From positions 1 through 30,022 of the IMG/VR virus record IMGVR_UViG_3300035670_000963: a stretch of DNA of 30,022 bases, one strand, 5' to 3'. Shown piece by piece: positions 5,839 through 22,671 of the stretch. A program made the translations under genes and the position numbers. Within the stretch, counting starts at the first letter, position 1. Each line of letters starts with the position of its first letter. The notes beneath the pieces were generated by a model that ran no database searches, had not been told where the DNA came from, and saw only the letters and a list, made by a program, of their open reading frames with translations. Source of the DNA: a virus.

Positions 5839-5867
5839 TTGATTTTTTAGGATTTACTAGGGATTTT
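5839..5867. repeat. 29-bp intergenic element, copy A
   Basis: Copy A of the shared pattern TTGATTTTTT, then RRGAWYNACWR, then GGGATTTT. It directly abuts the ATG of the gene at 5868. The two GATTTT blocks start 21 bp apart, two helical turns, as in copies B and C. Relative to the downstream gene this copy has the opposite orientation to B and C. Candidate binding site or promoter element; function unknown. Confidence 0.7.
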
Positions 5868-6284
5868 ATGGACATGTCTAATAAGAGATATCAGCTTGAC
5901 AACTATGTAAAAGATTGGGGACATAGAGTAGTGAAGATTGTGGGACTGGATCATAAAAAAGTAATAGTGGATTATGGGGAAGACAACCAGGCTACATTAG
6001 AGTGGCATGATATCTTCCCCATTCCAATTAAAGTAAACTTACTTGTTCAAATGGGATTCTCTTTGCTAGAAGAAAAACGTAATCCTTATCATGTGAAATA
6101 TTCAATGTCCACAATCATACTAGGTAGACATTACAATGCCACAGGAATAGAATACGATAATAAATCATTATGGAATTTCAGTAACACATCTGTGTTATAC
6201 ATACACCAACTACAAAATATAATGTCTATAATAAACCCTGATATAGATTATTTCATAATAGGAATAAACCAGAATCTTTCTTAA
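5868..6284 (+). CDS. conserved Bacteroidota phage protein, unknown function
   Basis: A 138-aa protein. IPIPIKVNLLVQMGF near residues 50-65 and the C-terminal VLYIHQLQNIMSIIN recall a common Bacteroidota phage/element family ending in HQLQNLYFAL. The ATG at 5868 is followed by a second at 5874; either could be used. The gene is separated from its left neighbour by 103 bp containing the 29-bp element, and it converges tail to tail with the next gene with a 4-base overlap. It is the last rightward gene in the window. Confidence 0.82.
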   Translation: MDMSNKRYQLDNYVKDWGHRVVKIVGLDHKKVIVDYGEDNQATLEWHDIFPIPIKVNLLVQMGFSLLEEKRNPYHVKYSMSTIILGRHYNATGIEYDNKSLWNFSNTSVLYIHQLQNIMSIINPDIDYFIIGINQNLS

Positions 6285-6928
6285 GCGTTATGCCAATAAT
6301 TTATATCAAATAAATTGGTACAAACTTCAATAGCTTCAGTATCTGATATAATTTTAAACCTTCCGTTAGATATCAAACCTACTTTACACAGAAAGGGTAA
6401 TACCTTTTCCAAATAAGGTCTTTGAGCGTAGTTCTTATGTATATCACAAATTACAGAAGGCCAATTATTTACAGGAATCTTTTTGTTAGATATTTCTAAA
6501 AAACAAAGATAGCAGTAGCAATCAAACATCGTACTATTTTTTGGAATAGGTTTACCACCTGATCTGAAAATTGAAGACAGCATTAAGAAGACATACTCAA
6601 GCAGAGACAAGTTATTTAAAACTCCTCTAGGAACTCTTCTATTGTGTCCATACATTTTCTTATCTATATTGAAGAATGTGTTGTAAGGCCATGTGTAAGT
6701 AAATGTACTGTCATACAAATACAGATGCACTCTTATTAGAACATCTGTTCCGTGCTTATTAATGCTGAATGTATCTATTTTGTATCTGCCAAAGTACCCA
6801 TTATCATCTAACAACTTAGATACAGCATTTACTGAGGGCCTGTAAGATCTGGAAAATAATAGTTCATTGATAGATACTTCAAATTGATCACTTTTAAATT
6901 CATCATTTAATATTGGATAATCTTCCAT
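6281..6928 (-). CDS. unrecognised 215-aa protein
   Basis: Not recognised. A soluble mixed alpha/beta sequence with several Cys (MFDCYCYLCFLEISNKK about 138-154, VICDI, FLCKVG) but no classical zinc spacing. It is last in the leftward block and overlaps the convergent gene at 6281-6284, with no terminator hairpin visible between them. Its ATG shares one base with the stop of the upstream gene, so the two are probably co-translated. Function unknown. Confidence 0.8.
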   Translation of the reverse strand: MEDYPILNDEFKSDQFEVSINELLFSRSYRPSVNAVSKLLDDNGYFGRYKIDTFSINKHGTDVLIRVHLYLYDSTFTYTWPYNTFFNIDKKMYGHNRRVPRGVLNNLSLLEYVFLMLSSIFRSGGKPIPKNSTMFDCYCYLCFLEISNKKIPVNNWPSVICDIHKNYAQRPYLEKVLPFLCKVGLISNGRFKIISDTEAIEVCTNLFDINYWHNA

Positions 6929-7263
6929 TAGTTTAGGTTTACAACTATCTCATCTACAATACTAGCATCTACTATAGAATACCTCTTAGATTCTAGAATA
7001 TCTGCTAGGGATTTTAGCTCAGCTAATCTTTCATAGTTTTCATTTCTTTTGTAGTACACAAACAAAAGTCTAATATTATAGATAGCACATTCTAATAAAT
7101 TTGGATCTCTACTATGTACAATATTTTTTCCTAAAAACAAAAGAGATTTGTAAGAAGACTCTATATGTTCTTGAAATTCTGATTTCATTTTTTCACTGCC
7201 TACAGAAAAAACTTCATCTAAATTCTTTTCATGTTCTGATGGGTCAAAGTCTAAGATATTCAT
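6928..7263 (-). CDS. unrecognised helical acidic protein
   Basis: A 111-aa acidic protein that is probably all-helical (HIESSYKSLLFLGKNIV, ECAIYNIRLLFVYYKRNENYERLAELKSLADIL). Not recognised. It lies between the 215-aa protein (1-base overlap) and the HNH protein (10-base gap), so it probably belongs to their unit. Confidence 0.78.
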   Translation of the reverse strand: MNILDFDPSEHEKNLDEVFSVGSEKMKSEFQEHIESSYKSLLFLGKNIVHSRDPNLLECAIYNIRLLFVYYKRNENYERLAELKSLADILESKRYSIVDASIVDEIVVNLN

Positions 7264-7273
7264 GTGCTTGGAT

Positions 7274-7651
7274 TTAGGTAAATATATATAGGGGTTTGTA
7301 GTCGTTATCTATTATCTCTCCGGTAGTAACTAGTACTCTAGTGTACCACTTAAACAAAGCTACATCTTCCTTTGAAATCTTCCAGTCATTTTCTACTACT
7401 TTTCTTAATATAGCACATAGCTTATCTAGTAGAAACTTTTGGAACTCGTCTATAGATTTGTGTCCTTTAAGACTGTTACATTTTCTACAAGCGAATATCT
7501 TATTATTCACCAGAGTATTTCCCTCCGATATTGGAAGGAAATGATCTCTAGTGATGTCTTCAAAGGGGACTTTTACTTTGCAATAATAACAACACTCGCC
7601 CTGTTTCTTATACTGATCGTATAAGGTTGGGCTGAACTTTCTTTTATTCAT
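7274..7651 (-). CDS. HNH nuclease-family protein
   Basis: A 125-aa protein with an HNH fold signature: CYYC (C21, C24), then DHFLPISEG (D36, H37), an Asn in NTLVNNK, and CRKCNSLKG (C55, C58, N59, K62, G63). The two Cys pairs should bind a structural zinc, and the DH and N residues form the nicking/cleaving site. Residues 65-125 are an extra helical tail. It could be a homing enzyme, a terminase- or recombination-linked nuclease, or an anti-host nuclease; nothing shows which. It starts inside the stop of the upstream gene (ATGA at 7648). Confidence 0.88.
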   Translation of the reverse strand: MNKRKFSPTLYDQYKKQGECCYYCKVKVPFEDITRDHFLPISEGNTLVNNKIFACRKCNSLKGHKSIDEFQKFLLDKLCAILRKVVENDWKISKEDVALFKWYTRVLVTTGEIIDNDYKPLYIFT

Positions 7652-7977
7652 CTGTCACTCTCTGTAAAACCTGCTGAATCATGTACGGGGCCTTCATCAT
7701 TAGAAGGGAAATCTTGTATTTGTTTCAATAGCTCTGTAACCTCAGTCTCATTTAGATACCCTCTAACGTCTCCATTTGCTACTGAGTTGTCGTAGTGAAG
7801 CTTTCCACCTTCTCCTAAAACAGCCAGCTCGTACAGACCTTCTCTGCCTCCATAACTGAAATTGTGTCTAACTATACTAGCTCCGTATCCATTATCAAAT
7901 TGGATCCTACACTGAACTCCGTTGTAAAAAGGATCATTTAATTCTATAAACTCTAAGTCATTAAATGTTTTGTACAT
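7648..7977 (-). CDS. conserved phage protein, NGYG family
   Basis: A 109-aa protein with GVQCRIQFDNGYGASIVRH, YGGREGLYELAVL, then VANGDVRGYLNETEVTELLKQIQ. This is a family I recognise across unrelated phages: a beta-rich domain followed by a short helix. Function unknown. The leader reads AAAATTAAAAGTTATG, one of the GTTATG starts typical of this region. It is coupled to the HNH gene by an ATGA overlap. Confidence 0.87.
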   Translation of the reverse strand: MYKTFNDLEFIELNDPFYNGVQCRIQFDNGYGASIVRHNFSYGGREGLYELAVLGEGGKLHYDNSVANGDVRGYLNETEVTELLKQIQDFPSNDEGPVHDSAGFTESDR

Positions 7978-7992
7978 AACTTTTAATTTTTA

Positions 7993-8739
7993 TTATTCTG
8001 TAATTGAATCTTCTTGTGCTTCTTGATTAATTCTTTCTTCTTTAATTAACTCTGAATAGAAATAAATAGTTATTGGTATTATTGGACTTATTATATTCAT
8101 AGCCACAAACTTCTGCGTAAGCCCTATCTCAAACCAGTAGTGTAGAATGTTAACAGACCATGATACTAATCCAAAAAATATAGCAGTATTCCTTTTACCA
8201 AACATGGTAAATATATAAATGCTAGATTCCAAAGATATAGCAAATATCCAACTCATCAAAAAAGAAAGTGTTGATTGATCGCTAAGTAAATAAAATAAAC
8301 TAGACGCATGGTTTATCTGAGTTAATAACGCACAGATAATAGTTATCCTTATGATTCTACTTTTAGTAAAGAAGCTGTTCTTTGTTTCCACTTTTTCTAT
8401 TTTAGGTGATATGAAATTAGTTTTATTTATAATAACCTTTTCTTCCTCTATTTTAATTTCAGGTTTTATTTCTATAAATTCTTCCATAACCTTTTGTTCC
8501 TCTACTTCTTCTTCCTCTATTATAAAATCTTCTGGTAACTCTATCCTTGCGTAGTCTTCCCCATCAGATATAAAAGTATCGAACTCCACCTCCATCCCGT
8601 CAGATAAAAAATATCCAACGTAGTCAGGGTGTATTGGTATAGCCTTCTTTCTCTTTCTATAACCTGCAGAAGACCAATACCAATCGTCTTTACTAGTAAC
8701 CACCCAGCCATTGCTTGCCTTACTTATGGTACCTTTCAC
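7993..8739 (-). CDS. four-helix membrane protein with MKGTI N-terminal domain
   Basis: A 248-aa protein in three parts: an N-terminal soluble domain (1-70, MKGTISKASNGWVV opening), a very acidic linker (about 72-105), and four predicted membrane helices (about 128-152, 158-180, 184-206, 212-235). The N-terminal domain is paralogous to the whole of the next gene (MKGTIIQKENGWFV). The C-terminal helices contain HASSLFYLL and YWFEIG but I do not recognise the family. It probably anchors the small domain to the inner membrane. Confidence 0.85.
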   Translation of the reverse strand: MKGTISKASNGWVVTSKDDWYWSSAGYRKRKKAIPIHPDYVGYFLSDGMEVEFDTFISDGEDYARIELPEDFIIEEEEVEEQKVMEEFIEIKPEIKIEEEKVIINKTNFISPKIEKVETKNSFFTKSRIIRITIICALLTQINHASSLFYLLSDQSTLSFLMSWIFAISLESSIYIFTMFGKRNTAIFFGLVSWSVNILHYWFEIGLTQKFVAMNIISPIIPITIYFYSELIKEERINQEAQEDSITE

Positions 8740-8740
8740 T

Positions 8741-8965
8741 TCATATAAATAGCTCTTTCGTAATATATGCGTAGGGAGTTGTTGTTAGTGGAGTACAAAA
8801 TATGTCCACGTAATACTCAACAAACGCACCTTCTTTTAAGAAAGGTTTATTACTACTTGATAGTTCTATCTTTACACCGTAGGTATAAAAAAACGGAGGC
8901 CTGTCAGTTATCACAAGAGTGTCGACAAACCATCCGTTTTCTTTTTGTATAATAGTACCTTTCAT
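8741..8965 (-). CDS. MKGTI-domain small protein
   Basis: A 74-aa protein. It aligns from residue 1 with the N-terminus of the downstream membrane protein: MKGTI, K-x-x-G-W-x-V, then a basic/aromatic strand, then an xGxxVE-Y/F segment. The result looks like a small beta-barrel-type domain. It lies 1 base upstream of its membrane-fused paralogue, so a soluble and an anchored form of the same domain are made side by side. Function unknown. Confidence 0.82.
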   Translation of the reverse strand: MKGTIIQKENGWFVDTLVITDRPPFFYTYGVKIELSSSNKPFLKEGAFVEYYVDIFCTPLTTTPYAYITKELFI

Positions 8966-8966
8966 A

Positions 8967-9944
8967 TTAGATCATTCTAGCAGCCAGATCAAACGCTTTA
9001 GATATCTTGTCATTAGCATATCCGTAGTTCATATCCCTCATCTTCTGATCAGCAGACTTGTAATCCTTGAGGAAGTTGTAGAACCCAGAGATACCATTAT
9101 AAGCCCCCCACAGTGTACGATAAGCAGCTTCAGTAGTCTGAGTAGGGTGAGTAATGGTGAATGAGTAGACTTGATCTACCAGGTTCTTCATCCTAGTAGA
9201 TGCATCTTTGTCGGACTCTTCTTCTTTAGTAGCTGACTTCATTACAGTCTCAATGTAATGTTTCAACTCCAGGTCAGTCAACCTACGGGTTGTCATACTT
9301 TCAAATGCCATGTTGACTTCATCCATGTACTTAGAAGCTATTCCCATGACCCTAGAAGCCTCTCTAAGTCTGCTCTCAGCTGATGCAGTGTGGGAGATGC
9401 TGACCTTGTTATCGAGGTTCTTAAGAGCTGCTGTGAGGGTGTTGTTACATACTACACGAATGGGAGTGAAGCCTGCGATGATTGTGGTAGAACCATCGTG
9501 AGAGTTGGTAAGCATGATATACTTCTCTACCTTCTCACCACGAACCAACATATCATCAGGAAGCTTAGCAGTAACGAATATCCTTTCACCTCTACCCAAA
9601 GCGCCTGCTGTCTCAAAGATAGCCTCTCCTTTGTCAATGATAGAATCAAAGAAGCTAAACGCATCCTTGTTCTGTACAATACGATACCTACCTTTTACAA
9701 CTCCTAGTATCTCATTGTTGTCGGTCCTAACATTTGCATAGAACCCAGGAGCTTCTACATAAGTACCTTCCCATGCTGGTGCAAACAAAGGACGTTTCTC
9801 TACTCCATAGTTGAGACCTCCCAATTCAATTGCTTGTTCAGATGTCATTGCCTCTGATACATACTGACCTAGACCATGCCAAGCTTTTTCACCACGAGCT
9901 GCAAAAGACCATTTACCGTTGTTGAGATTCAGATTGTGTGCCAT
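8967..9944 (-). CDS. TIGR03299/DUF932 phage/plasmid-like protein
   Basis: A 325-aa protein with the start AHNLNLNNGKWSFAARGE, then AWHGLGQYV, LGVVKGRYRIVQNKDAFSFFD, GRGERIFVTAKLP, SHDGSTTIIAGFTPIRVVCNNTL and a C-terminal WGAYNGISGFYNF. This is the DUF932 (TIGR03299) family, common in phages and plasmids, of full normal length. Biochemical role unproven. Its codons are GC-richer than its neighbours. The leader is a long run of CAACA/AAACAAAC repeats ending in AGTTATG, with AAATCAAAATC further upstream, which suggests strong expression. Confidence 0.94.
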   Translation of the reverse strand: MAHNLNLNNGKWSFAARGEKAWHGLGQYVSEAMTSEQAIELGGLNYGVEKRPLFAPAWEGTYVEAPGFYANVRTDNNEILGVVKGRYRIVQNKDAFSFFDSIIDKGEAIFETAGALGRGERIFVTAKLPDDMLVRGEKVEKYIMLTNSHDGSTTIIAGFTPIRVVCNNTLTAALKNLDNKVSISHTASAESRLREASRVMGIASKYMDEVNMAFESMTTRRLTDLELKHYIETVMKSATKEEESDKDASTRMKNLVDQVYSFTITHPTQTTEAAYRTLWGAYNGISGFYNFLKDYKSADQKMRDMNYGYANDKISKAFDLAARMI

Positions 9945-10149
9945 AACTGTTTGTTTGTTTGTTGTTGATGTTGTTGATTTTGATTTGAAATATAAGATCT
10001 TTCTTTTTATCTGACTTAAAACATTTTGATAGTTTTTTACATTCGGCTATCCAATACACATACATACCCCTTATTTTAGGTAATGCATTTTTTTCTATCT
10101 CCCACTCGTTGCCTGATGCATCTGCGTAGACTGTTCTTTTCAATACCAT
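9913..10149 (-). CDS. small protein whose tail runs through the next leader
   Basis: A 78-aa protein. The first ~50 residues (VLKRTVYADASGNEWEIEKNALPKI, MYVYWIAECKKL) look properly coding. The last ~28 (INNINNKQTNSYGTQ) are the translated leader of the DUF932 gene plus a 32-base overlap with it. Either the protein really has this low-complexity tail or it has lost an earlier stop. Family unknown. The start lies 3 bases after the lipoprotein's downstream boundary. Confidence 0.6.
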   Translation of the reverse strand: MVLKRTVYADASGNEWEIEKNALPKIRGMYVYWIAECKKLSKCFKSDKKKDLIFQIKINNINNKQTNSYGTQSESQQR

Positions 10150-10152
10150 ATA

Positions 10153-10482
10153 CTAGAGTTTAAATTCTCCGCTACCAGCTGGTACTTCAAATTCAATTTC
10201 TATCTCATCTCCCTGGTGTCTATCTGATAAGAAGTCTATCATGCCTCCTATAATAGACAAGTCCTCTTTATCTAATAACTTGAAGTTCATTTCCTTAACA
10301 AGCTCTCCATTGTCCAGAGACCAAGTCATTGCTTGTAGTTTTGCATAGGGTTTTCCTTTGTGTAACACTACGTCATTGTTGACTTGAAACTCTGACTTAG
10401 GAGCTTTCTTTACAGAGCTGCCTTTGAATAGTCCACATCCTGCCAGTAAAACGATTGCGATAATTGCTGTTGCTTTTTTCAT
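10153..10482 (-). CDS. predicted lipoprotein
   Basis: A 109-aa protein. Residues 1-16 form a lipoprotein signal: MKK, a hydrophobic stretch ATAIIAIVL, and lipobox LAGC (C16), followed by a polar Ser/Lys-rich tether and a beta-rich domain (VVLHKGKPYAKLQAMTW, GDEIEIEFEVPAG). It should be exported and lipid-anchored in the host envelope. No family recognised. Leader AAATCAAACAAAATG. Superinfection exclusion or envelope modification is a reasonable guess for a phage lipoprotein, but nothing proves it. Confidence 0.85.
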   Translation of the reverse strand: MKKATAIIAIVLLAGCGLFKGSSVKKAPKSEFQVNNDVVLHKGKPYAKLQAMTWSLDNGELVKEMNFKLLDKEDLSIIGGMIDFLSDRHQGDEIEIEFEVPAGSGEFKL

Positions 10483-10493
10483 TTTGTTTGATT

Positions 10494-10706
10494 TTAATTG
10501 TAAGATATTATTACTTCTCTAGAGTCGGTTAAAAAATTTTCTATACATTCATATAGACCTTTGTTCATATCATTATGAGGAGATTTCTTAAACTTGTTGT
10601 ATAGAGCATAGCATCTTTGAAACTCCTCATCTATAGGAATATCACTAAGCTCCTTTTCATAATTATGCTGATAGAGTCTGGAAAATAGATAAAACTCATA
10701 GCCCAT
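10494..10706 (-). CDS. unrecognised 70-aa protein
   Basis: A 70-aa soluble, Tyr-rich, helical protein (YEFYLFSRLYQHNYEKEL, EEFQRCYALYNKFKK, NKGLYECIENFLTD). Not recognised. It is the first gene of a leftward unit: a terminator and a TATATTTG box lie just upstream. Two ATGs are near (10706 and one 6 bases upstream out of frame); I chose the one opening the long frame. Confidence 0.75.
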   Translation of the reverse strand: MGYEFYLFSRLYQHNYEKELSDIPIDEEFQRCYALYNKFKKSPHNDMNKGLYECIENFLTDSREVIISYN

Positions 10707-10718
10707 GTTGCATGTTTT

Positions 10719-10755
10719 AATTATTACAAATATAGTAAGTTCTTTTTAAATAAAA
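10719..10755 (-). promoter_or_regulatory. probable Bacteroidota-type promoter
   Basis: Read leftward, the region contains TATATTTG (10734 down to 10727), an exact match to the Bacteroidota -7 consensus TAnnTTTG. An AT-rich TTTATTT stretch sits in the -33 zone instead of a perfect TTTG. It sits between the terminator at 10757 and the start at 10706, where a promoter is expected. Confidence 0.55.
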
Positions 10756-10784
10756 AAACCCGCCAACGTAGAAACACGGCGGGG
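10752..10784 (-). terminator. leftward intrinsic terminator
   Basis: Read leftward: CCCGCC (10783-10778), a 13-base loop, GGCGGG (10764-10759), then seven T. It lies about 40 bases after the stop of the gene at 10826 and ends that unit. Confidence 0.85.
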
Positions 10785-10825
10785 TATGACTAACCACAAA
10801 TAAAACATAAGGTTGTAATTCTTTC

Positions 10826-11110
10826 CTAACTTACCAATTCTTTTACTTTAACTACCCAAGCAGTGATGTCTTCAACAAACTTCTTTGCCCTATCTACAGT
10901 AGTAGTGTAAGCGTAGAACTGACAATACTCTGAGTCGAAGTCTATACCGGAGCAGTCTATATGCTTCCGAATATATTCTTCGAGGTCATACGCACTTTCA
11001 AAGTCTCTGAATCTATAGTCTTTAGCTATACTGCCTGTAACGGTGTACTGTTCTCTGTCTTCGTCTAGTTTAAAAATGACGAACCCAATTGGATACTTAA
11101 TGTCTTTCAT
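10826..11110 (-). CDS. unrecognised small acidic protein
   Basis: A 94-aa protein starting MKDIKYPIGFVIFKLDEDREQYTV. An in-frame ATG at 11224 would give a 132-aa form, but its extra 38 residues lie over the next gene and the A-rich leader, whereas ATG 11110 has the standard AAAACAAAAGTTATG leader. The fold is a mixed sheet with FESAYDLEEYIRKHI and a helical C-terminus. A GIDFDSEYCQFYAYTTTVDRA segment is conserved-looking, but I do not know the family. Confidence 0.8.
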   Translation of the reverse strand: MKDIKYPIGFVIFKLDEDREQYTVTGSIAKDYRFRDFESAYDLEEYIRKHIDCSGIDFDSEYCQFYAYTTTVDRAKKFVEDITAWVVKVKELVS

Positions 11111-11150
11111 AACTTTTGTTTTTTTAATTAATGTAAAAATAGAACTTTTA

Positions 11151-11342
11151 TTATTCTTCTTCGCTTTCAAATTCCTCATCAGCCAAATAACTATATTCAC
11201 TGTAAATACTCCAACACAATTCAATCATTTGTTTACGTGCGTAAAATTCAGATTCACTCAGGTCATCACTATCTATATTATCAAAACAATCTCTAAGGTC
11301 CCTAAGCGTGTTTTCAAATCTACAATAAGACATGTTACTCAT
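11151..11342 (-). CDS. conserved phage protein, MSYCRFENT family
   Basis: A 63-aa protein with the pattern MSYCRFENTLRDLRDC, then LSESEFYARKQMIELCWSIYSEY, which I recognise from many phages: short helical proteins of unknown function, often with paired Cys. The start could be the first Met (11342) or the fourth residue (11333); homologues often begin MSN-MSYCRF, so I keep the longer one. Leader AAAACAAAAGTTATG is nearly identical to that of the following gene. Confidence 0.88.
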   Translation of the reverse strand: MSNMSYCRFENTLRDLRDCFDNIDSDDLSESEFYARKQMIELCWSIYSEYSYLADEEFESEEE

Positions 11343-11357
11343 AACTTTTGTTTTTAT

Positions 11358-11738
11358 TTATTTTGAAATCCCAATTAATTTTTTTCCTACTGAAACAATT
11401 TGTTCCAAAACCATCCCATCTATATTCTCCCCACTGTTAATAAACCAATAAGGAAATACTCTAGGGTTATAATTAAGGTGAATGAAATTATCCCAAGATA
11501 CAGTATTGGGTTCCTGTATCTCTACTGCTGTACATTTAACCCAAGCACAAACTGTTTTATGCGCTCCTGCCAATATCTTCAATGCGGTCTTCTGTTGATT
11601 CTTTAACTGGCATTCATACATTACAATTTGAATCTCATCTGGGTCATAGTAACTCACCCCTTCCGGACCCTCTACCTTCCACTTCATGTAGTTCTTTCCT
11701 TTACCTAGATTGAACCTGACTTTGTATAGTCTTTTCAT
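11358..11738 (-). CDS. conserved protein with VRFNLGKGKNYMKW motif
   Basis: A 126-aa protein. LYKVRFNLGKGKNYMKWKV, the MYECQLKNQQKTALKI segment and CAWVKC belong to a conserved phage/plasmid family of unknown function that I recognise by pattern. Probably a compact beta-rich nucleic-acid- or protein-binding domain, but that is a guess. It lies 10 bases after its upstream neighbour. Confidence 0.85.
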   Translation of the reverse strand: MKRLYKVRFNLGKGKNYMKWKVEGPEGVSYYDPDEIQIVMYECQLKNQQKTALKILAGAHKTVCAWVKCTAVEIQEPNTVSWDNFIHLNYNPRVFPYWFINSGENIDGMVLEQIVSVGKKLIGISK

Positions 11739-11748
11739 TTCTTTTAAT

Positions 11749-11979
11749 TTACATCCCTGCTCTTTGAAAGTATAGTTTCTCTAGAACTCTCTGGTAGAAA
11801 GTGTTGGGAATGAACACGTTATCTTCTTCCATGATAACCAGTTTACTAGGGATCATGAAGTCTAACTTCTCTGTTTTGATCCTGTAGATGCCTGGCATCA
11901 TGTCGTTCTCGTAGACATTCTTTTTCTTAAACTTAATACGAGCTGTGCTGTCGTATTTAAAATAAAGATCTTGTACCAT
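11749..11979 (-). CDS. unrecognised basic small protein
   Basis: A 76-aa protein, basic in the first 40 residues (YFKYDSTARIKFKKKNVYEND) with an IMEEDNVFIPNTFYQRVLEKL tail. Not recognised. Its leader reads AAATAGTTATG. It follows the GP88-family gene with a 2-base gap, so it is very likely in the same transcript. Confidence 0.77.
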   Translation of the reverse strand: MVQDLYFKYDSTARIKFKKKNVYENDMMPGIYRIKTEKLDFMIPSKLVIMEEDNVFIPNTFYQRVLEKLYFQRAGM

Positions 11980-11981
11980 AA

Positions 11982-12713
11982 CTATTTACTTTTTTTAGAA
12001 TAACCTTTAATACCTTTCTTTTTAAGATTGCTTAGAGCTACAGATGCTTTGCTGCCCTTCTTCTGAGAACCATGAATCAATAAGCCGAAGCTCTCCTTAC
12101 CATCATAGGCATGGCTGTCATCGTGATCTAACTCCAGATTAAGTTCTATAGCTTGATCCTCAGTGAAGACAACCTCAGCGTATTTAAGCTTGTTGAGCTC
12201 AATCAAATCATCTGATCTACCTCCCTTAGAACTAGTAAGGTTAAAGTTTTCAGGAATAGTCTCCCTCCTCTCTAGCCAATACGGAATACTCTTGGTGTAA
12301 GCATAGAATTTTTTCTTGGGGTACAACCTAGCTACAGCCATCCAAGCATCGAAGTATACCTGTGAGAAGAAGTCCCCTGATACGTGTACCCTTACTGTGT
12401 CTGCTTTAGGTGGTAGGCTATCTACAATAAGATCAGTCATTTTACTAGCTGTCTTAAGTTTCTTCAGTAGGTCATAGTTGTGCCACCTAGCATTCCTAGT
12501 GTTAGTGTACAATGCTTCTTGAGAAGCAGCGAAGCATCTGAATACTTGGTCCTTGCCGTCCTTGATCTTTCCTGTAGATCGATCCGCGGAAGCCTTACAC
12601 TCAAATGCAAAAGGGCAGCTATGCCCTGCCGGTAAAGAGAAGGTGTAGATGTTCTTGGATAATTTAGCGTTACCCTTTCCGAACTTTAGTAGTGTAATTT
12701 TGTCAGTCTTCAT
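11982..12713 (-). CDS. GP88-family phage protein
   Basis: A 243-aa protein with LLKFGKGNAKLSKNIYTFSLPAGHSCPFAFEC near the N-terminus, then FRCFAASQEALY, VRVHVSGDFFSQVYFDAWMAVA and FYAYTKS. This matches the gene product 88 family first named in mycobacteriophages and found in many phages. Conserved Cys residues (CPFAFEC, FRCFA) may hold a metal or cluster, but the biochemical role is not established. The very basic C-terminus (LKKKGIKGYSKKSK) may bind nucleic acid. It overlaps the end of the DnaA-like gene by 11 bases. Confidence 0.87.
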   Translation of the reverse strand: MKTDKITLLKFGKGNAKLSKNIYTFSLPAGHSCPFAFECKASADRSTGKIKDGKDQVFRCFAASQEALYTNTRNARWHNYDLLKKLKTASKMTDLIVDSLPPKADTVRVHVSGDFFSQVYFDAWMAVARLYPKKKFYAYTKSIPYWLERRETIPENFNLTSSKGGRSDDLIELNKLKYAEVVFTEDQAIELNLELDHDDSHAYDGKESFGLLIHGSQKKGSKASVALSNLKKKGIKGYSKKSK

Positions 12714-13005
12714 GTGCTATTTGTTTTATTTTTTCTCTTATTGATTGGGACTTCAATCTAAATATTTCATCGGTCTCATACATGTTCTTGTACACTTTAA
12801 TCCCATGTCTAACCGTAGCATGATCCCTACCAGTAGCTCTTCCTGTCTCCGGTAAATTTAGCCCCATGTGAGTGAGAGATCTGTAAAGAGTATGCCTAGC
12901 CAGGGATACCATACCAGATCTATTCTTCGACAATAGTTCTTCTTTTGTTATGTTATAAGCTTTGCATATAACATTTAGAATTTTTTCAAATTGTTCTGCT
13001 GACAT
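12703..13005 (-). CDS. free-standing DnaA domain IV-like DNA-binding protein
   Basis: A 100-aa protein that is only the C-terminal DNA-binding part of a DnaA-like initiator: an N-terminal helix with YNITKEELLSKNRSG, ARHTLYRSLTHMGL, ETGRATGRDHATVRHGI (signature about 54-70) and a final helix. The RDHATV motif corresponds to the DnaA-box-contacting loop RDHTTVLH. There is no AAA+ ATPase or oligomerisation domain. It could mark a phage origin, compete with host DnaA for its boxes, or regulate transcription. Leader TTTAAAACAGATAAACATG. Confidence 0.88.
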   Translation of the reverse strand: MSAEQFEKILNVICKAYNITKEELLSKNRSGMVSLARHTLYRSLTHMGLNLPETGRATGRDHATVRHGIKVYKNMYETDEIFRLKSQSIREKIKQIAHED

Positions 13006-13024
13006 GTTTATCTGTTTTAAATTT

Positions 13025-13294: not shown

Positions 13295-13297
13295 AGT

Positions 13298-13495: not shown

Positions 13496-13506
13496 GTTAT
13501 TTGTTT

Positions 13507-13719: not shown

Positions 13720-13720
13720 G

Positions 13721-15028: not shown

Positions 15029-15032
15029 GTTG

Positions 15033-15367: not shown

Positions 15368-15370
15368 AAC

Positions 15371-15754: not shown

Positions 15755-15764
15755 TGTGATTAAT

Positions 15765-15856
15765 TTAAAATTTTCCCCAATTAGATTTCTTTTTTAATTC
15801 TTCTGATATTTTAAATCCTGTTTTCTACCCATTAAGGTTTTATGCAGTTGTGTCAT
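15765..15856 (-). pseudogene. possible frame-disrupted microgene
   Basis: From ATG 15856 the frame reads MTQLHKTLMGRKQDLKYQKN and stops at 15794. Switching frame around AGAAAACAGG at about 15820 instead gives TGFKISEELKKKSNWGKF, ending in TAA at 15765. The joined 30-residue reading looks more protein-like than either part and resembles the GFKxSEExKKK pattern of NUMOD3-type segments. It may be a broken or frameshifted small gene, or chance. Confidence 0.25.
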
Positions 15857-15859
15857 GTT

Positions 15860-16051
15860 TTATTTTTTAAAAGAAAGTAACTTTATTAAACTATTAGGGT
15901 CTGTAGTTGCCAGTAGAATAGCATTTGCTATGGCTGGTACAACAAAAGATGGATCTTCGACCCATTCTTCTTTAGACCAGCTTACTACAGGAGTCCCATC
16001 ACTTGTGGAGATGTCAATATAATCTTCCGTAATATCAACTATCATATTCAT
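15860..16051 (-). CDS. small conserved-looking protein
   Basis: A 63-aa protein with MNMIVDITEDYIDISTSDG, then PVVSWSKEEWVEDPSFVVPAIANAILLA. The WSKEEWVEDPxxVxPAIANAI stretch looks like a phage family I have seen but cannot name. Start could be residue 1 or 3. It begins 4 bases after the next upstream gene's stop. Function unknown. Confidence 0.78.
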   Translation of the reverse strand: MNMIVDITEDYIDISTSDGTPVVSWSKEEWVEDPSFVVPAIANAILLATTDPNSLIKLLSFKK

Positions 16052-16055
16052 TTAT

Positions 16056-16592
16056 TTAGTCCTCAATGAAAAATTCTGTATACTTCTCCATACCTTCAGG
16101 CTCTAAGAACTCTGTGGATATTATATCGCCTGCCCAAGATCCTACATTAGTATCATCATCATCTCTGTAGTCTCCACCACCTCTTCCATTGCCTGAGGAT
16201 GTCAGAATGGATAACGGATGTATCCTCCAGTCGCCCTCTCCATTTAATTCAGGAAGACCAGGAACCTCTTCCATATCAATGTACACATTCTTAGAATGAT
16301 TTACAATGTACCTAATCTCTGGTCCATCCATAACACCTTCTGATACATTTGTAAATTCATCTAAGGCTACGTCATACAAGTTACGATCTGGATCATCTGT
16401 AAATAATAACTTATCTCCATAGTCTCCAGCCCACACAAGTTGAGTCTTATGCCATGGGTTTCCTGGAGATAGTAGATTTTCTACTCGCTTCATGTAAGTA
16501 TGTCCTACCCAAGAATGTTCCATTAACTTTGCACCGAATGGTGATACGAATTGTTTAGCATCTAAAGATACTGCTTTATAGTATTGTCCCAT
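16056..16592 (-). CDS. conserved MGQYYKAV-family protein
   Basis: A 178-aa protein. The opening MGQYYKAVSLDAKQFVSPFGAKLMEHSW is the signature of a well-spread phage and bacterial family of unknown function; VWAGDYGDK and VGSWAGDII further on match its WAGD motif. Full length for the family. Its position among small early genes gives no specific clue. Leader CAATCAATAACTATG. Confidence 0.9.
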   Translation of the reverse strand: MGQYYKAVSLDAKQFVSPFGAKLMEHSWVGHTYMKRVENLLSPGNPWHKTQLVWAGDYGDKLLFTDDPDRNLYDVALDEFTNVSEGVMDGPEIRYIVNHSKNVYIDMEEVPGLPELNGEGDWRIHPLSILTSSGNGRGGGDYRDDDDTNVGSWAGDIISTEFLEPEGMEKYTEFFIED

Positions 16593-16594
16593 AG

Positions 16595-16939
16595 TTATTG
16601 ATTGTTTTCTTCTTGTTTCTTTGTTACGTACTTTTCTATAGCGTATTCTACGATAGACTCTATTTCATAGCTATCAAAATCTACATTTGATATAGAAACT
16701 TCTATAGTGTTTCCGTTAACGTCTGTGTCTATGTCATAATTACTAATGACATCAATCCCCTTGCGGTCAAGTTGATCTTCTATCTCCTGTGCAATATTAC
16801 CTATGACATCTGCACCTAGTTCCGATGCTTCTGTTTCAAGATCTTCAACCATCTTGATTACATCTGATACGGGAATAAAAGCACTTGATGATAGTGTTCC
16901 TGCTGCTTTAAGCTTTTCGATAAGTTCTTGCTTTTTCAT
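16595..16939 (-). CDS. unrecognised acidic protein
   Basis: A 114-aa protein with an N-terminal helix (KKQELIEKLKAAG), an IPVSDVIKMVEDLE helix, and a C-terminal half of DIDTDVNGNTIEVSISNVDFD and EIESIVEYAIEKYV. Not recognised by name, though the layout (helix, then D-N-x-EVS strands, then a helix) is regular and clearly coding. It lies 2 bases from its downstream neighbour and overlaps its upstream one by 32. Confidence 0.8.
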   Translation of the reverse strand: MKKQELIEKLKAAGTLSSSAFIPVSDVIKMVEDLETEASELGADVIGNIAQEIEDQLDRKGIDVISNYDIDTDVNGNTIEVSISNVDFDSYEIESIVEYAIEKYVTKKQEENNQ

Positions 16940-17117
16940 TTTCTAATTGTTTAATTGTTTGATAATTGTTTCTGACAAATTTTACTAAGCCCATGAGACT
17001 TAGGCTATTAGCGTTCGCTAATTTAAAGACTTCCTCTCTCCAAGGGAGCTCTTGTTCGAATATCCAAATCAAGAGATCGTAATCATCAAGGTGGGATATG
17101 TTTGATTTAGTTGACAT
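16908..17117 (-). CDS. small helical protein overlapping the next start
   Basis: A 69-aa helical protein (DYDLLIWIFEQELPWREEVFKLANANSLSLMGLVKFVRNNYQ). The last ~20 residues (IKQLENEKARTYRKA) are encoded in the leader and first 32 bases of the next gene, as with two other gene pairs here. The N-terminal part has convincing coding character. Family unknown. Confidence 0.7.
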   Translation of the reverse strand: MSTKSNISHLDDYDLLIWIFEQELPWREEVFKLANANSLSLMGLVKFVRNNYQTIKQLENEKARTYRKA

Positions 17118-17140
17118 GTTATATATTTTTTATTATAGCT

Positions 17141-17707
17141 TTAACAATTTATCATACAGTGAACAACACCCACAGCCTCTTCCATACAATTATCTTCTCC
17201 ATAGTATCCCCAAGAAGCTTCCACTTCTTCTCTATGTTCATCTCCGTTATCGGATGTAGATATTTCATATATCTTAAACCCATAAACATCTCCTCTAAGA
17301 TATTGATCATAGGTCTCTACCTCTCCTTCTAATACTGACTGAGCCTTCTTAATGATCTCTTCATCTACTTTACCGTACTCCTTAATCAAATCTTCTTTAG
17401 TGGCAAATATAAATCCTACTTGCATACTGTCCCACCTGTCACCAAAAGGTTTGGTAGACATAGTAATACCACTATGATCATACAGATAAAGCTTGAGTAT
17501 GATAGGAGGATATCCTAATTCTTTTTGGACATCTAACCAAGTAAGACAATCACTAAAATCGTAGTCGTGTTTATCTCCTAGGTTATACTTACGGTGTTGA
17601 CATACCATAGTACCTAGGTTGTCCCACTCCCTTGGAGATTCTGGATCTTCGTCTTGAATAATTTCTATCTCGTAATTTTCTATACGTTTTGTACTTACTA
17701 CTTCCAT
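17141..17707 (-). CDS. conserved phage protein, SPREWDNLGTM family
   Basis: A 188-aa protein. IIQDEDPESPREWDNLGTM and HRKYNLGD, LYLYDHSGITMSTKPFGDRWDSMQVGFI and LEGEVETYDQYLRGDVYGFKI are the landmarks of a family found in many phages, including ones of Gram-positive hosts. Function unknown. It is the first gene after a terminator; the 29-bp element copy B ends 12 bases before its ATG, making it a candidate for control by that element. Confidence 0.92.
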   Translation of the reverse strand: MEVVSTKRIENYEIEIIQDEDPESPREWDNLGTMVCQHRKYNLGDKHDYDFSDCLTWLDVQKELGYPPIILKLYLYDHSGITMSTKPFGDRWDSMQVGFIFATKEDLIKEYGKVDEEIIKKAQSVLEGEVETYDQYLRGDVYGFKIYEISTSDNGDEHREEVEASWGYYGEDNCMEEAVGVVHCMINC

Positions 17708-17719
17708 TTTGTATATACT

Positions 17720-17748
17720 TTGATTTTTTAAGAACGACAGGGGATTTT
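17720..17748. repeat. 29-bp intergenic element, copy B
   Basis: Reads TTGATTTTTT, AAGAACGACAG, GGGATTTT on the + strand. It lies between a leftward terminator and the start at 17707. Read in the direction of the gene it is AAAATCCC, then AAAAAATCAA close to the ATG. Same length and spacing as copies A and C. Confidence 0.75.
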
Positions 17749-17754
17749 CAAGCT

Positions 17755-17788
17755 GTATAAAAAAGGGGCAAGATTTCTCCTGCCCCTA
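17755..17788 (-). terminator. leftward intrinsic terminator
   Basis: Read leftward: AGGGGCA (17787-17781), a 10-base loop, TGCCCCT (17770-17764), then a T-run. It lies 25 bases past the stop of the gene at 17813. Confidence 0.88.
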
Positions 17789-17812
17789 GTTACAAACAAC
17801 AATCAACCAAAA

Positions 17813-18106
17813 CTAATCAAACACTCTTGAGATAGTTTGGTCAAGAGGATTGAACTCTACCTGATTGTAAGAGTGGTAGGTTCCTTTCTCAAACACCATC
17901 CTATCATGTTCATCGTGGGTAAGAACCCCCATATCTTTGAGCATGAAGGTGATGCTGTCAGCTGTTACATCATACTCGATCTCTGATTTAGAATCAAGGA
18001 TGTGTTTGATCATCTGTCCAGTTACTGCTGATACGTGTTCACCTTCACCGAGACAGAGACGCTTTGCTGTTTTCTTTGCTTTGTTAGATGCTTTCTTGTT
18101 TGACAT
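17813..18106 (-). CDS. small protein with basic N-terminus
   Basis: A 97-aa protein. The first 17 residues are very basic (SNKKASNKAKKTAKRLC), suggesting nucleic-acid binding; the remainder (VSAVTGQMIKHILDSKSEIEYDVTADSITFMLKDMGVL) is helical. Not recognised. GC-richer codons than its neighbours and a terminator straight after suggest high expression. Upstream it carries TTCTTAACAATCAAAAACAAAACAAAATG, which partly matches copy B of the 29-bp element. Confidence 0.78.
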   Translation of the reverse strand: MSNKKASNKAKKTAKRLCLGEGEHVSAVTGQMIKHILDSKSEIEYDVTADSITFMLKDMGVLTHDEHDRMVFEKGTYHSYNQVEFNPLDQTISRVFD

Positions 18107-18151
18107 TTTGTTTTGTTTTTGATTGTTAAGAACGAAGTTAATAATTAATTT

Positions 18152-18604
18152 TTAATTTTCCAAATAGTTTTCTTCTTGTTTAAATTCAAATACCCACTCT
18201 TCTACAGGCTTAAGATCTTTAAGAGATATCTCAGTTTCTACAAAGAAAGATGACTCTGAATCATCACTTACCTTATAATATAAGTATCCTGGATGAATGA
18301 TTATCTTAGATCCTACCGGACTAAACAGACAACTTTCATCTTCCATAGTCTCTTCTGGATCTGCGAAGTATATTTCCTCAGGCTCTATAGGATAGTTTAT
18401 AGTTATGTGGTGTCCTTCATCATTTCTATTATATAGACCCATCTCATCCATACAATACTCAGTTAGATACTTTATCTTTTCTATGTCTTTACTACTAAAA
18501 ACAAGTAGTACCTTCTCTGGTATATATGAATACCACTCTTTGGAGTGATAGTCAAAAGTCTTTAATAAGTAGTAGTGAGTAGGTTTCTTTTTTCTTTGTG
18601 CCAT
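18152..18604 (-). CDS. unrecognised 150-aa acidic protein
   Basis: A 150-aa protein with a basic start (MAQRKKKPTHYYLLKTFDY) and then mostly acidic, beta-rich sequence (ITINYPIEPEEIYFADPEETMEDE, IIIHPGYLYYKVSDDSE). Not recognised. The leader TAATCAAATGG is almost absent: the gene begins 4 bases after the upstream stop. Confidence 0.78.
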   Translation of the reverse strand: MAQRKKKPTHYYLLKTFDYHSKEWYSYIPEKVLLVFSSKDIEKIKYLTEYCMDEMGLYNRNDEGHHITINYPIEPEEIYFADPEETMEDESCLFSPVGSKIIIHPGYLYYKVSDDSESSFFVETEISLKDLKPVEEWVFEFKQEENYLEN

Positions 18605-18608
18605 TTGA

Positions 18609-19358
18609 TTAGGTTTCAGAATACATTAAGCTGAGGTACTGATCTTTAGTTAGGTGGTATTGATTCACTTTCTTAGAGTTAGGTCCCTCCTTAGCAATGA
18701 TGATATCACCTTGACGATAGATTCTCTCAGGCTTGTCGATGTCTAGTCTGATAGTCCATGCAATAGCTTTGATTGCATCATACTTCTTTTCTACCTCATC
18801 AGCCCATTCTCTTATGCCATCTTTCAAAGCTGCTGTTTCTGGAACATAGATCCAATACTCACGATTGGTTGTGGTACACCAGCAACGTACTGCAATGTAC
18901 TTAGACCTAGCTCTCCACCTAGAGTTGTCAGTCTCTGTACCTTTGTAAAGTTCATTGGGATCAACTGAGTACAACTCGTACACATCTTCGAACTCATAGT
19001 CATAGATGTCATTCTTGTCATCCCAACGCTTACGATGTTTCTTAAGTACTTGCTTATCCAACAGCTTTGGATTAGCTGCTTTGAATAACTCAACCACACC
19101 AATACAGTCAAAGAAGATTCTTCTCATCTCTGCATTCTTCTGTCCGAATGCTTCTTGTACTGTAATAGGATTGATGTCATCCCACATATCTTTTACAAAA
19201 GATCCGAACTCCAACAAGGCATCCGACTTGATCACTGCCCTTCTGAAGTGTTCATAGGTTGGGAACTTGGTTTTCCAAAGTCGCATAGCCTCGTCCAAAG
19301 ACATGCCAGCGACTCCTGAAACTGTGTAGTTTGCTTTTCTGAAATCGAACTGTTTCAT
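18609..19358 (-). CDS. unrecognised 249-aa protein
   Basis: A 249-aa protein with a helical N-terminal half (MSLDEAMRLWKTKFPTYEHF, VQEAFGQKNAEMRRIFFDC, VLKKHRKRWDDKND) and a beta-rich C-terminal half holding ARSKYIAVRCWCTTTNREYWIYVPE and AIAWTIRLDIDKPERIYRQGDIIIAK. The last segment (W-T-hydrophobic, then YRQGDIIIAK) resembles a family of phage proteins I cannot name. GC-richer codons. Leader AAAACAAAAAAACAAAACAATG. Confidence 0.83.
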   Translation of the reverse strand: MKQFDFRKANYTVSGVAGMSLDEAMRLWKTKFPTYEHFRRAVIKSDALLEFGSFVKDMWDDINPITVQEAFGQKNAEMRRIFFDCIGVVELFKAANPKLLDKQVLKKHRKRWDDKNDIYDYEFEDVYELYSVDPNELYKGTETDNSRWRARSKYIAVRCWCTTTNREYWIYVPETAALKDGIREWADEVEKKYDAIKAIAWTIRLDIDKPERIYRQGDIIIAKEGPNSKKVNQYHLTKDQYLSLMYSET

Positions 19359-19381
19359 TGTTTTGTTTTTTTGTTTTGTGA

Positions 19382-20056
19382 TTATGAAATTGAAATGTGT
19401 ATCTCTTTATCTTCGTCCATGTATTTAGAGTAATGAAAGTCTTCTATGAGTACCTCATAGTTTCCTTCACTGTCTCTAGTCAACTCTGAAGCACTTTGAT
19501 GTAGTTCCATGTAGACGTTATTTATCTCACAGTATTCGCTACATATCTCTGGATCATCTAATGCTTTTTCTATTTCTCCTATAAGATATTTTGAGGTAGC
19601 TTTCTCAAACTGTATATGATCTTCAGATACGGGTCCGTTACTTATTATAAGTCTCACATCTGCTGCGACATCTTCTCCATACCCATGAAGATGAATCATG
19701 ATAGAGTCAAACCAAAAGTCTTTAGGTATCTTTATTTTTAGAGGAGTATCAAATGAATACTTGAAGTCTTGACTATCTGTACAAGAATCACTACCTACAA
19801 AAGCAGTAGCATCAGCATTCAAACTCGCTTCTCCGCTACAAGAGAAGTCTCCTGCAAATGAGTAATATCCTATGTCCTCTGCCATTTGATCAATTAATTT
19901 GGACTCTATGGCCGCTCTGTCCCTGTAACAATCAATAGATTCTCCTTTTATGAAAAGGTCATAACAACCCTCATCGTTACCACCTTCCCATGTGATTTTA
20001 ATGTCGGTAGTGCCATACTTTTTTACTATGGCATCTATCAATTCTTTTCTAGTCAT
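19382..20056 (-). CDS. acidic protein, tandem paralogue 2 (GGNDEG motif)
   Basis: A 224-aa acidic protein. Landmarks: IKITWEGGNDEGCYDL (about 19-34), then FAGDFSCSGEASLN, ATAFVGSD, and FDSIMIHLHGYGED, RLIISNGPVSEDHIQFE. Each has a counterpart in the neighbouring gene at 20076, so these are paralogues in tandem. The TWxGGNDxG and AGDFSxxGE motifs recall a phage/bacterial DUF6878-type fold, but I am not certain. Unknown function. Confidence 0.82.
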   Translation of the reverse strand: MTRKELIDAIVKKYGTTDIKITWEGGNDEGCYDLFIKGESIDCYRDRAAIESKLIDQMAEDIGYYSFAGDFSCSGEASLNADATAFVGSDSCTDSQDFKYSFDTPLKIKIPKDFWFDSIMIHLHGYGEDVAADVRLIISNGPVSEDHIQFEKATSKYLIGEIEKALDDPEICSEYCEINNVYMELHQSASELTRDSEGNYEVLIEDFHYSKYMDEDKEIHISIS

Positions 20057-20075
20057 GCTTTTGTGTTTTGTTTTT

Positions 20076-20735
20076 TTAATATGTGTGGCTATCTACTACA
20101 GATATTTCATGCTCCTTACAGTTGGATACCCTATCTTCATAGCTTATAGATTCTATAACAAATACTAAGTTTTCTCCAACCTCGTCCATATCATCTCTGT
20201 TTATAACCCAATCATTATACACACTACCAACAGTACAATTCAACTTACTTATCACATCTGTTATATCCTTTTCTAGAGTCTCTTGTATTTTATTTTGTAA
20301 ACCTATATGTTCCTCAAATACAGGACCATTGCTAATATTAAATCTACAAAAAACCCCAACAGGATCGTATTCCCAATCACCAGATATTTCTATGGATATG
20401 CTGTCGAAGTTGAAAGCCTTAGGTACTTCTACTTCTATATTACAGTCCGCAGATTCATACTCACTAGTAATTTCTTCCCCTTCTCCTACAAAGGCACTTT
20501 TCTCTGAGTCATAGAATACTTCTCCACGAGCACTAAAGTCTCCAGCCCAACTGCCGTAGTCTAAAGCATCATCTATCAAATCAGATATATCAGACTCTAG
20601 ATCATCTCCAAAGTCAAGACCCCTACCATCTATATAGACAGTAATGGTACCGCTATCATTACCCCCATCCCAAGTTACTTTGATTTCTTTTCCTTCTTTA
20701 ACAATGGCATCTAATTCTTCTTTAAGATTTTTCAT
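20076..20735 (-). CDS. acidic protein, tandem paralogue 1 (GGNDSG motif)
   Basis: A 219-aa acidic protein: IKVTWDGGNDSGTITVYIDG, SWAGDFSARGEVFYD, SAFVGEGE, FDSISIEISGDWE, FNISNGPVFEEHI. These align with the next gene downstream across the whole length despite low overall identity, so an old duplication. The two are separated by a 19-base leader. Its start overlaps the previous gene by 14 bases. Confidence 0.82.
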   Translation of the reverse strand: MKNLKEELDAIVKEGKEIKVTWDGGNDSGTITVYIDGRGLDFGDDLESDISDLIDDALDYGSWAGDFSARGEVFYDSEKSAFVGEGEEITSEYESADCNIEVEVPKAFNFDSISIEISGDWEYDPVGVFCRFNISNGPVFEEHIGLQNKIQETLEKDITDVISKLNCTVGSVYNDWVINRDDMDEVGENLVFVIESISYEDRVSNCKEHEISVVDSHTY

Positions 20736-21111
20736 TTGTTGTTTCTTTTATTTCTGATAAATCGAGAGATGCTTTTACTTTCCTAGTCTCATCGGCTTTC
20801 ATCATCCAAGGTTGGACTTGTAAACCTTTCAACCAATCTTCTACCGTAGGCACAAACCCACAGTCTTCAAAGATATGATCGTAAGCAATCTGCCTAACCT
20901 CTACCATCTTACCATCTGAGTTAGTGATGTAATCACCAAAGACCTGCTCTGCTAACAACATACCGAAAGAGTTGTGTAAGATAGCACGATGTTTGAATAT
21001 CGGCATGTGTCCTTTGGTTGAATCAAACCATCGATGAATTGCAATGTAATCTTTAATCTCTCCTCCGTATTTCTTTACTGAGGACCTAGAGTGTAATAGT
21101 GGAGTTCCCAT
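20722..21111 (-). CDS. DUF6915-like protein
   Basis: A 129-aa protein with TPLLHSRSSVKKYGGEIKDY, IHRWFDSTKGHMPIFKHRAILHNSFGMLLAEQVFG and YDHIFEDCGFVPTVEDWLKGLQ. The order HxRSSxxxxGG, IHxWFDxxK, RHRAxxHxxxG, EDxGxxP---DWL matches the family I know as DUF6915, present in many phages. The conserved His/Asp residues look catalytic or metal-binding but no activity is established. Confidence 0.87.
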   Translation of the reverse strand: MGTPLLHSRSSVKKYGGEIKDYIAIHRWFDSTKGHMPIFKHRAILHNSFGMLLAEQVFGDYITNSDGKMVEVRQIAYDHIFEDCGFVPTVEDWLKGLQVQPWMMKADETRKVKASLDLSEIKETTNEKS

Positions 21112-21114
21112 GTG

Positions 21115-21297
21115 TTAAGGTTTTTTATCTGTTATTGTAAATTTTATACCGCCTTCATGATTGAAGTTATTAAATACATCGTCATCGTCCGAATCATAAT
21201 CTTCAAACTCACAATGGTCCTTACAATCAGGACATATACCATAATCTAACATCATTGGATTAGTAACTGAGGCTCCACAACAAGATGATACTTTCAT
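21115..21297 (-). CDS. zinc-knuckle small protein
   Basis: A 60-aa protein starting MKVSSCCGASV, then YGICPDCKDHCEFEDYDSDDDD. Cys pairs C6/C7, CPDC (C22/C25) and C29 give a zinc site; the pattern SSCCGAxV---GICPDCKEHC is frequent in phages. I use ATG 21297 (leader AATAAACAATTAACAATG) and not the in-frame ATG 21393, which would lie inside the upstream gene. A very acidic middle follows the zinc site. Confidence 0.83.
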   Translation of the reverse strand: MKVSSCCGASVTNPMMLDYGICPDCKDHCEFEDYDSDDDDVFNNFNHEGGIKFTITDKKP

Positions 21298-21314
21298 TGT
21301 TAATTGTTTATTTA

Positions 21315-22610
21315 TTATAAAAAGAATCCAAACCTCTCTTCCTTCTCTGTGAGGAATAGATTGAATAGATGATTTTGAAATGCCCTTGAACAATCCTTGA
21401 AGCCAGTCTTAAGATGCTCGTTCTCTTCTATCAGAGTAACCACAACTTGTTTCCTACCCATGTCAAAGATTCTAGTAGACAATAGTATTGTACCTTGATG
21501 AGCCCTGCCAAGTACTTCCCTATCTTCAAACTCTACAACTTGAATAGGATACCCTATCTGATACTGACACTCATCGCAGAATTTAGTTGCCTCATCTAAT
21601 ATGAACTGCTGCTTACTAGTTGGAGTAACTGTTTTATATCCGATAGCAGCTCCAGAATCATCTAGTCCATATATCTTGACATCTGAGAAAGCATTTCTAA
21701 TAGCCATTGCCATCTCTACACTGACGATGTAGAAAGGCTTGGACTGTTGAATCTCTATAAAATACCCAGCCACATTGTCTATTATAATACATCTATTGTC
21801 AATAGCTTGTCGCCAAGTAGTACTAAGTGTACCACCAATTCCCCATCTCCAAGGAAGTCTAGACTCCCATGTGCTGTCAACAAAAGCTTTTTCTAATATA
21901 GTCCTGGCTACATGAACACTAGTACATCTGTTCAGTATCTTGGCTACCTTGTACTCTGCATTGAATAGACTGTCAATAAGTCTGCTCTCATTGATTTCAA
22001 AATCTGTACAATCATATTCAAATAAGGACTTAGTACCTAAGTCAAACCAACATCTGATACCTTTTCTGTACAGGACAACATTATTATCTGGATCTGTCTG
22101 AGGATATATCTTGCCTCCCTTCTCAGTATAGAAAGCATCCTCTCTATCAAAAGCAAAGTAAGAGTTCCATCTAGACATGATGTCTTCTAGTAAGGGGTGA
22201 TGTTCTACAAAGAATCTGGTATATCCTTCCCTACCTTGAACATTCTCAGTTTCTTGGATAAGATTGTAACCACCTTCATCTATACTATTAGAAACCCATT
22301 CACGAATAGCCATCCATGGTTGCCATTGAGGCCCCATATCAGTAGTCAATGAAGTCTCTCTACCACCGATAATAATCTTCTTGAAGTTCACACCTCTGAA
22401 GTCTACATCCTCAGTCGCAATGTCTATCTTCTCTTCTCCCGAATAGATTGCAAACTTGATACCGTGTTTGATAAGAGTAGCGATAGCATATTTGTTACCA
22501 GATCCAAAGAAACCAATCATGTTCTTGGAATCTCTCTTAGTAGAAGCCCCTAGCAAAATCAAAGATGAAATATCCAGTTCACCTTTGTTCTCAATTAGTA
22601 AATGTTTCAT
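21315..22610 (-). CDS. GHKL-type ATPase with degenerate zincin-like C-terminus
   Basis: A 431-aa protein starting MKHLLIENKGELDISSLILLGASTKRDS. The ATP-binding core shows GFFGSGNKYAIATLIKHGI (G-rich loop) and WMAIREWVSNSIDEGG, the N-box (E, N and D residues) of the GHKL fold. The C-terminus VVVTLIEENEHLKTGFKDCSRAFQNHLF resembles a metallopeptidase helix with HExxH replaced by ENEH, so the peptidase site is probably lost. I prefer ATG 22610 (AAACAGTTATG) to the ATG 18 bases upstream (22628). Such GHKL phage proteins are rarely characterised; chaperone-like or kinase-like roles are possible. Confidence 0.85.
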   Translation of the reverse strand: MKHLLIENKGELDISSLILLGASTKRDSKNMIGFFGSGNKYAIATLIKHGIKFAIYSGEEKIDIATEDVDFRGVNFKKIIIGGRETSLTTDMGPQWQPWMAIREWVSNSIDEGGYNLIQETENVQGREGYTRFFVEHHPLLEDIMSRWNSYFAFDREDAFYTEKGGKIYPQTDPDNNVVLYRKGIRCWFDLGTKSLFEYDCTDFEINESRLIDSLFNAEYKVAKILNRCTSVHVARTILEKAFVDSTWESRLPWRWGIGGTLSTTWRQAIDNRCIIIDNVAGYFIEIQQSKPFYIVSVEMAMAIRNAFSDVKIYGLDDSGAAIGYKTVTPTSKQQFILDEATKFCDECQYQIGYPIQVVEFEDREVLGRAHQGTILLSTRIFDMGRKQVVVTLIEENEHLKTGFKDCSRAFQNHLFNLFLTEKEERFGFFL

Positions 22611-22642
22611 AACTGTTTTTTTATACATTTTTTACAATACAC

Positions 22643-22671
22643 TTGATTTTTTGGGAACCACAAGGGATTTT
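22643..22671. repeat. 29-bp intergenic element, copy C
   Basis: Reads TTGATTTTTT, GGGAACCACAA, GGGATTTT on the + strand. It lies 32 bases upstream of ATG 22610 and overlaps the stop codon of the gene at 22670 by two bases. Same length and GATTTT spacing as copies A and B. Confidence 0.75.

Follow-up and report, generated by a model that had tools for sequence, protein, structure and literature searches.

An AT-rich element of about 43 bp was found in three gaps between genes of the window, the whole stretch of DNA analysed here, which is an IMG/VR virus record of 30,022 bases. The element consists of four blocks at fixed spacing, and it is lineage-restricted and conserved in a Flavobacterium-type phage group. 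From its sequence we infer that the element would be a double-stranded cis site, bound by a transcription regulator that the phage encodes and that controls the start of as many as three units, a reading to which we assign a probability of about 0.5. As a sequence family the element is new; regulator or promoter sites of phages, the kind to which it probably belongs, are already known.

The nearest cultured phage by DNA similarity was Immutovirus (Flavobacterium phage immuto), through a 172-bp match in thymidylate synthase with 83-84% identity. Nine related IMG/VR records were gathered by protein and pattern searches: G001, G002, G003, G004, G016, G017, G018, G019 and G020. G001 and G003 are two contigs from one sample (244 bp overlap at 97.5%), G019 is a partial contig, and G016 stops within the gene preceding the first element site and carries no site at all. 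Since the 99-kb record G002 encodes a tail sheath, a DnaB-type helicase, ribonucleotide reductase, GroEL and, by inspection, a family A type DNA polymerase, the element-bearing viruses are taken to be myoviruses. A 313-bp gap of the window (27150-27462) is occupied in G002, G003 and G004 by a counter-oriented gene of about 380-420 codons, apparently lost in the window.

Three copies of a 29-bp sequence are located on the forward strand of the window at positions 5839-5867, 17720-17748 and 22643-22671. The sequence-only reading had described them as equal in length with GATTTT blocks 21 bp apart, which proved exact for each copy. No further match was found in the window with up to three mismatches; 100 shuffles gave a mean of 0.15 matches and none of the 100 reached three, and chance does not account for the three exact copies. 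The nine relatives were scanned with a matrix derived from these copies only; the top 11 sites scored 24.7-38.2 and the next 17.2, with control maxima of 20.9 for the reversed matrix and 20.5 for Markov sequences. After iteration of the matrix, the window and its relatives together held 14 sites scoring at least 32.7, the next score being 16.2.

All 14 sites fall in three syntenic gaps between genes and have one genomic orientation throughout, and the matrix scan of the window and the nine relatives located no site in the other genome arm. Site 1 was present in every record spanning its gap (8/8: the window, G001, G002, G004, G017, G018, G019 and G020), site 2 in two out of six (the window and G002; absent from G001, G004, G018 and G020) and site 3 in four out of five (the window, G002, G003 and G018; absent from G004). 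The site 1 29-mers of the relatives share 21-29 of 29 bases with that of the window, whereas fourfold-degenerate positions in the exonuclease gene, within a few hundred bases of the site, keep just 32-56% identity. The pattern that a phage operator or activator site should show, recurrence at several gene starts, was thus found in one lineage, in three syntenic gene-start gaps and across ten records. As only one to three copies occur per element-bearing record, the element points to a small regulon; the earlier proposal of a regulator site or promoter class holds for a phage-specific cis element ahead of genes and fails for a general promoter class.

Chance similarity of AT-rich DNA, or a recently copied repeat without function, is highly improbable as an explanation of these sites. 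The element is indeed AT-rich, and the bare pattern matches thirteen IMG/VR contigs, only two of them from relatives; the remaining contigs are unrelated and probably matched by chance. Against this, the scores are far above those of shuffles and controls, and the sites are retained in synteny, with a fixed 43-bp geometry, despite saturated synonymous sites. A functionless or chance repeat is refuted by the matrix scans together with this syntenic conservation. Occurrence at chance frequency inside genes and lack of conservation in relatives, named beforehand as outcomes that would speak against the element, were both looked for and neither was seen, the sites being conserved and intergenic.

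Outside the group, the whole 160-kb Immutovirus record (MW353175) contained no copy with up to three mismatches, and a tight pattern gave no matches in 84,980 prokaryote genomes. In a BLAST search of the phage collection, matches to isolated phages were weak (E 0.6 or worse) and included no member of the element family. The Phocaeicola BLAST matches inspected fall within coding sequence. Records that carry distant relatives of the 432-aa gene behind site 3 likewise lacked the element.

An ungapped alignment of all 14 sites extended the element to about 43 bp, because a fourth block (AAAA on the reverse strand, TTTT on the forward strand) lies outside the 29-mer at a fixed distance in 14/14 sites, with positions 39-41 invariant. 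In leftward reading the element is AAAATCCC-N2-GTGTTTCC-N-AAAAAATCAA-N10-AAAA, with AAAATCCC at positions 0-7, GTGTTTCC at 10-17, AAAAAATCAA at 19-28 and AAAA at 39-42. Beyond the right end of the 29-mer, this alignment shows no more than background conservation. The copies first reported are real, and their size of 29 bp is too small; their 11-base centre, listed between the two shared sequences, is itself kept in the relatives (RGGAA..ACA). The element is asymmetric, made up of short repeats on the same strand that form no dyad, and its A-tracts (0-3, 19-24 and 39-42) are about 20 bp, or two helical turns, apart. A regulator would contact one face of the DNA through the four blocks at fixed spacing, with the A-tracts about 20 bp apart.

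The placement of the copies between genes, two ahead of leftward genes and one in reversed sense before the rightward ATG at 5868, was confirmed. Placement points weakly to a transcriptional role, because in a compact co-directional array an intergenic element will nearly always have a gene behind it. Site 2 (17706-17748, reverse strand) is located in the gap 17708-17812 between an intrinsic terminator of a leftward unit (17764-17787, reverse strand), which is conserved in six records and lies directly upstream, and the ATG of a 188-aa gene (17141-17707, reverse strand; phrog_6186, function unassigned), whose start codon it overlaps. In the four relatives lacking site 2, the conserved terminator is followed by only some 20-30 nt before the ATG. 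Site 3 (22629-22671, reverse strand) occupies the gap 22614-22669 ahead of a leftward gene of about 432 aa (21315-22613, reverse strand; phrog_8203), its right end overlapping the stop codon of a gene for a D5-like protein; in G004, without site 3, the two flanking genes overlap. By eye the 432-aa protein carries motifs resembling those of GHKL ATPases (FFGSGNKYA and REWVSNSIDEGG), and its distant homologues are found in Pseudomonas Yua-like and Bordetella phages.

At both sites the element fills nearly the whole gap from terminator or stop codon to ATG and leaves hardly any room for a separate promoter, so that activation or an intrinsic promoter is favoured there. The same observation lends support to a tentative alternative, in which the 43-bp element acts on its own as a phage-specific promoter, firing leftward from every site and served by a phage sigma factor or by a modified host polymerase or another polymerase. 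Its single orientation at all sites is consistent with this. A non-exhaustive search of 20 long G002 proteins turned up no recognisable phage RNA polymerase, which argues against it.

Site 1 (5825-5867, reverse strand; the 29-mer read on the forward strand at 5839-5867 and the fourth block at 5825-5828) lies in the gap 5765-5867, directly before a rightward 138-aa gene (5868-6284, forward strand; phrog_10066, function unassigned). In seven of the eight records its orthologue is the first gene after site 1, an extra ORF lying in between in G018, and the protein model of the 138-aa gene is beta-rich without a helix-turn-helix. In every related record spanning the 138-aa gene, convergent genes meet at the end of it, and the maximum of the cumulative GC skew is found there or within about 0.6 kb. 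At site 1 the element and its gene face in opposite directions, which is unusual for an activator box and counts against a regulator site. An AT-rich imperfect dyad, ACTTTTTGAC..AAA..AAAAAA (5777-5801), is located upstream of the element, at a nearly constant distance of about 40 bp from its start, with near-perfect arms in G002, G004, G017, G018 and G020; it was found at site 1 only, sites 2 and 3 being without it. An operator is favoured at site 1 by the dyad at fixed distance and by the reversed orientation. In G017, G018 and G020, site 1 comes after strong rightward hairpins, so that the gene behind it in these records probably needs a promoter of its own.

At site 1, a promoter within the element would transcribe into the rightward arm, giving an RNA that is short or antisense. 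Conservation of site 1 reaches further on the leftward side and not on the right, as such a promoter would predict, but its transcription would leave the 138-aa gene behind and meet no consistent leftward terminator. An apparent leftward T-run at +37/38 from site 1 is an arm of the dyad without a consistent hairpin and was rejected. By sequence, site 1 would suit an operator as well as a promoter of antisense RNA.

Known promoter types did not account for the element, in agreement with the sequence-only reading, which had found no host promoter consensus to explain it. The expected host type is the Bacteroidetes sigma-ABfr promoter, with a -7 box TAnnTTTG and a -33 box TTTG (PMC6847099). Near matches (5/6) to TAnnTTTG were the best obtained, without a full match at an offset common to all sites, and, read rightward, weak TAnnTTTT matches lie ahead of sites 1 and 3. 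Sigma-70-like sites occurred at the level expected from shuffles and not above it. In the 14-site alignment no conserved TATAAT-like -10 box follows the element in either direction, a further point against the element acting as a promoter by itself; the lack of a canonical core promoter at a fixed position counts against a regulator site as well. A structured RNA element (riboswitch, leader or terminator) was rejected as well, as no Rfam family matched and no conserved fold was found on either strand.

An example of the host type in the window precedes a 97-aa gene (17813-18106, reverse strand). A partial copy of the element had been suspected at this place; instead, a separate conserved host-type promoter is present (18107-18151, reverse strand), with a -7 box at 18133-18140 that reads TAACTTCG in the window and TAACTTTG in G002, G018 and G020, the orthologues reading TTAACTTTGTTTTTAACAATC in accordance with TAnnTTTG. 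The 97-aa protein (function unassigned) shows 83-97% identity across five relatives, while its neighbours are strongly diverged.

Phage activator sites that take the place of a -35 element are known from the MotA box of T4 (PMC2988021) and from Mor of phage Mu (PMC4390567). The MotA box, (a/t)(a/t)(a/t)TGCTTtA, is about 9-10 bp long, is centred at -30 in nearly 60 promoters and lies 12 bp from a good sigma-70 -10 box (PMC2988021). Like it, the element would be phage-specific, mark a small class of transcription starts and replace host promoter recognition; unlike it, the element measures 43 bp, occurs in one to three copies and shows no core box, the TGCTT core being absent from its conserved blocks. 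With the Mu middle promoter Pm, where the Mor site has the form of an inverted repeat of 16 bp and an UP element is present (PMC4390567), it would share the small number of sites, the A/T-rich tracts and the character of a long activator-dependent promoter, whereas its short same-strand repeats form no dyad and no -10 box was found. The MotA and Mor sites are functional analogues only, the defining features compared being different. The literature searched gave no account of promoter elements in Flavobacterium phages or in phages related to them.

A role in replication or genome maintenance, as a fork barrier, origin-linked repeat or initiator box, is unlikely. Such a site could be used by the DnaA domain IV protein that the phage encodes (PF08299), and an asymmetric element in the same orientation everywhere, with site 1 less than 1 kb from the cumulative GC-skew maximum, would suit it. 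DnaA boxes are 9-mers of the type TTWTNCACA bound by DnaA domain IV, and on inspection the core of the element resembles half a box, ..ACA(C)A being a frequent reading. What recurs is the ..ACA part alone, and some sites are without it; three of the eight site 1 copies read TTTACT in place of ACACA. The skew tracks gene direction, a counter-oriented gene having a reversed skew in three records, so that the maximum marks convergent genes and is not a proven terminus; a replication terminus near site 1, suggestive as the skew was, was rejected on this ground. The lack of sites in the other arm also speaks against a replication site.

Regulation of transcription by a phage protein remains the preferred reading, and the units controlled would be the 138-aa gene at site 1, the operon of the 188-aa gene behind the terminator at site 2 and the operon of the 432-aa gene at site 3. 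Several candidate regulators are encoded by these phages. The D5-like protein (22670-23014, reverse strand; phrog_323), encoded next to site 3, was modelled as a three-helix helix-turn-helix and is hypothetically a regulator of the element; neither its model nor that of the 138-aa protein had a significant match in the PDB. A second candidate is the stand-alone DnaA domain IV protein (12703-13005, reverse strand; E 1e-14). In G020 two adjacent DnaA domain IV matches were observed (70220-70561 and 70574-70969). Proteins with HTH_39 (3779-3994) and HTH_17 (26901-27149) domains are further putative regulators. In the partial contig G019, which carries site 1, HTH_39 was not detected, which weakens that candidate, and a DnaA-like protein was not detected beside its usual neighbour.

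It is conceivable, at low probability, that the DnaA domain IV protein or the D5-like protein has been recruited as the dedicated regulator of a three-site regulon through the phased, orientation-fixed 43-bp element. If so, this would be a mode of promoter recognition undescribed for Bacteroidetes phages in the literature searched. Transcription control in Bacteroidetes phages is poorly described, and a precisely bounded element of one to three copies may serve as a probe for finding the phage-encoded regulator. The element would mark three uncharacterised gene units as coordinately controlled.
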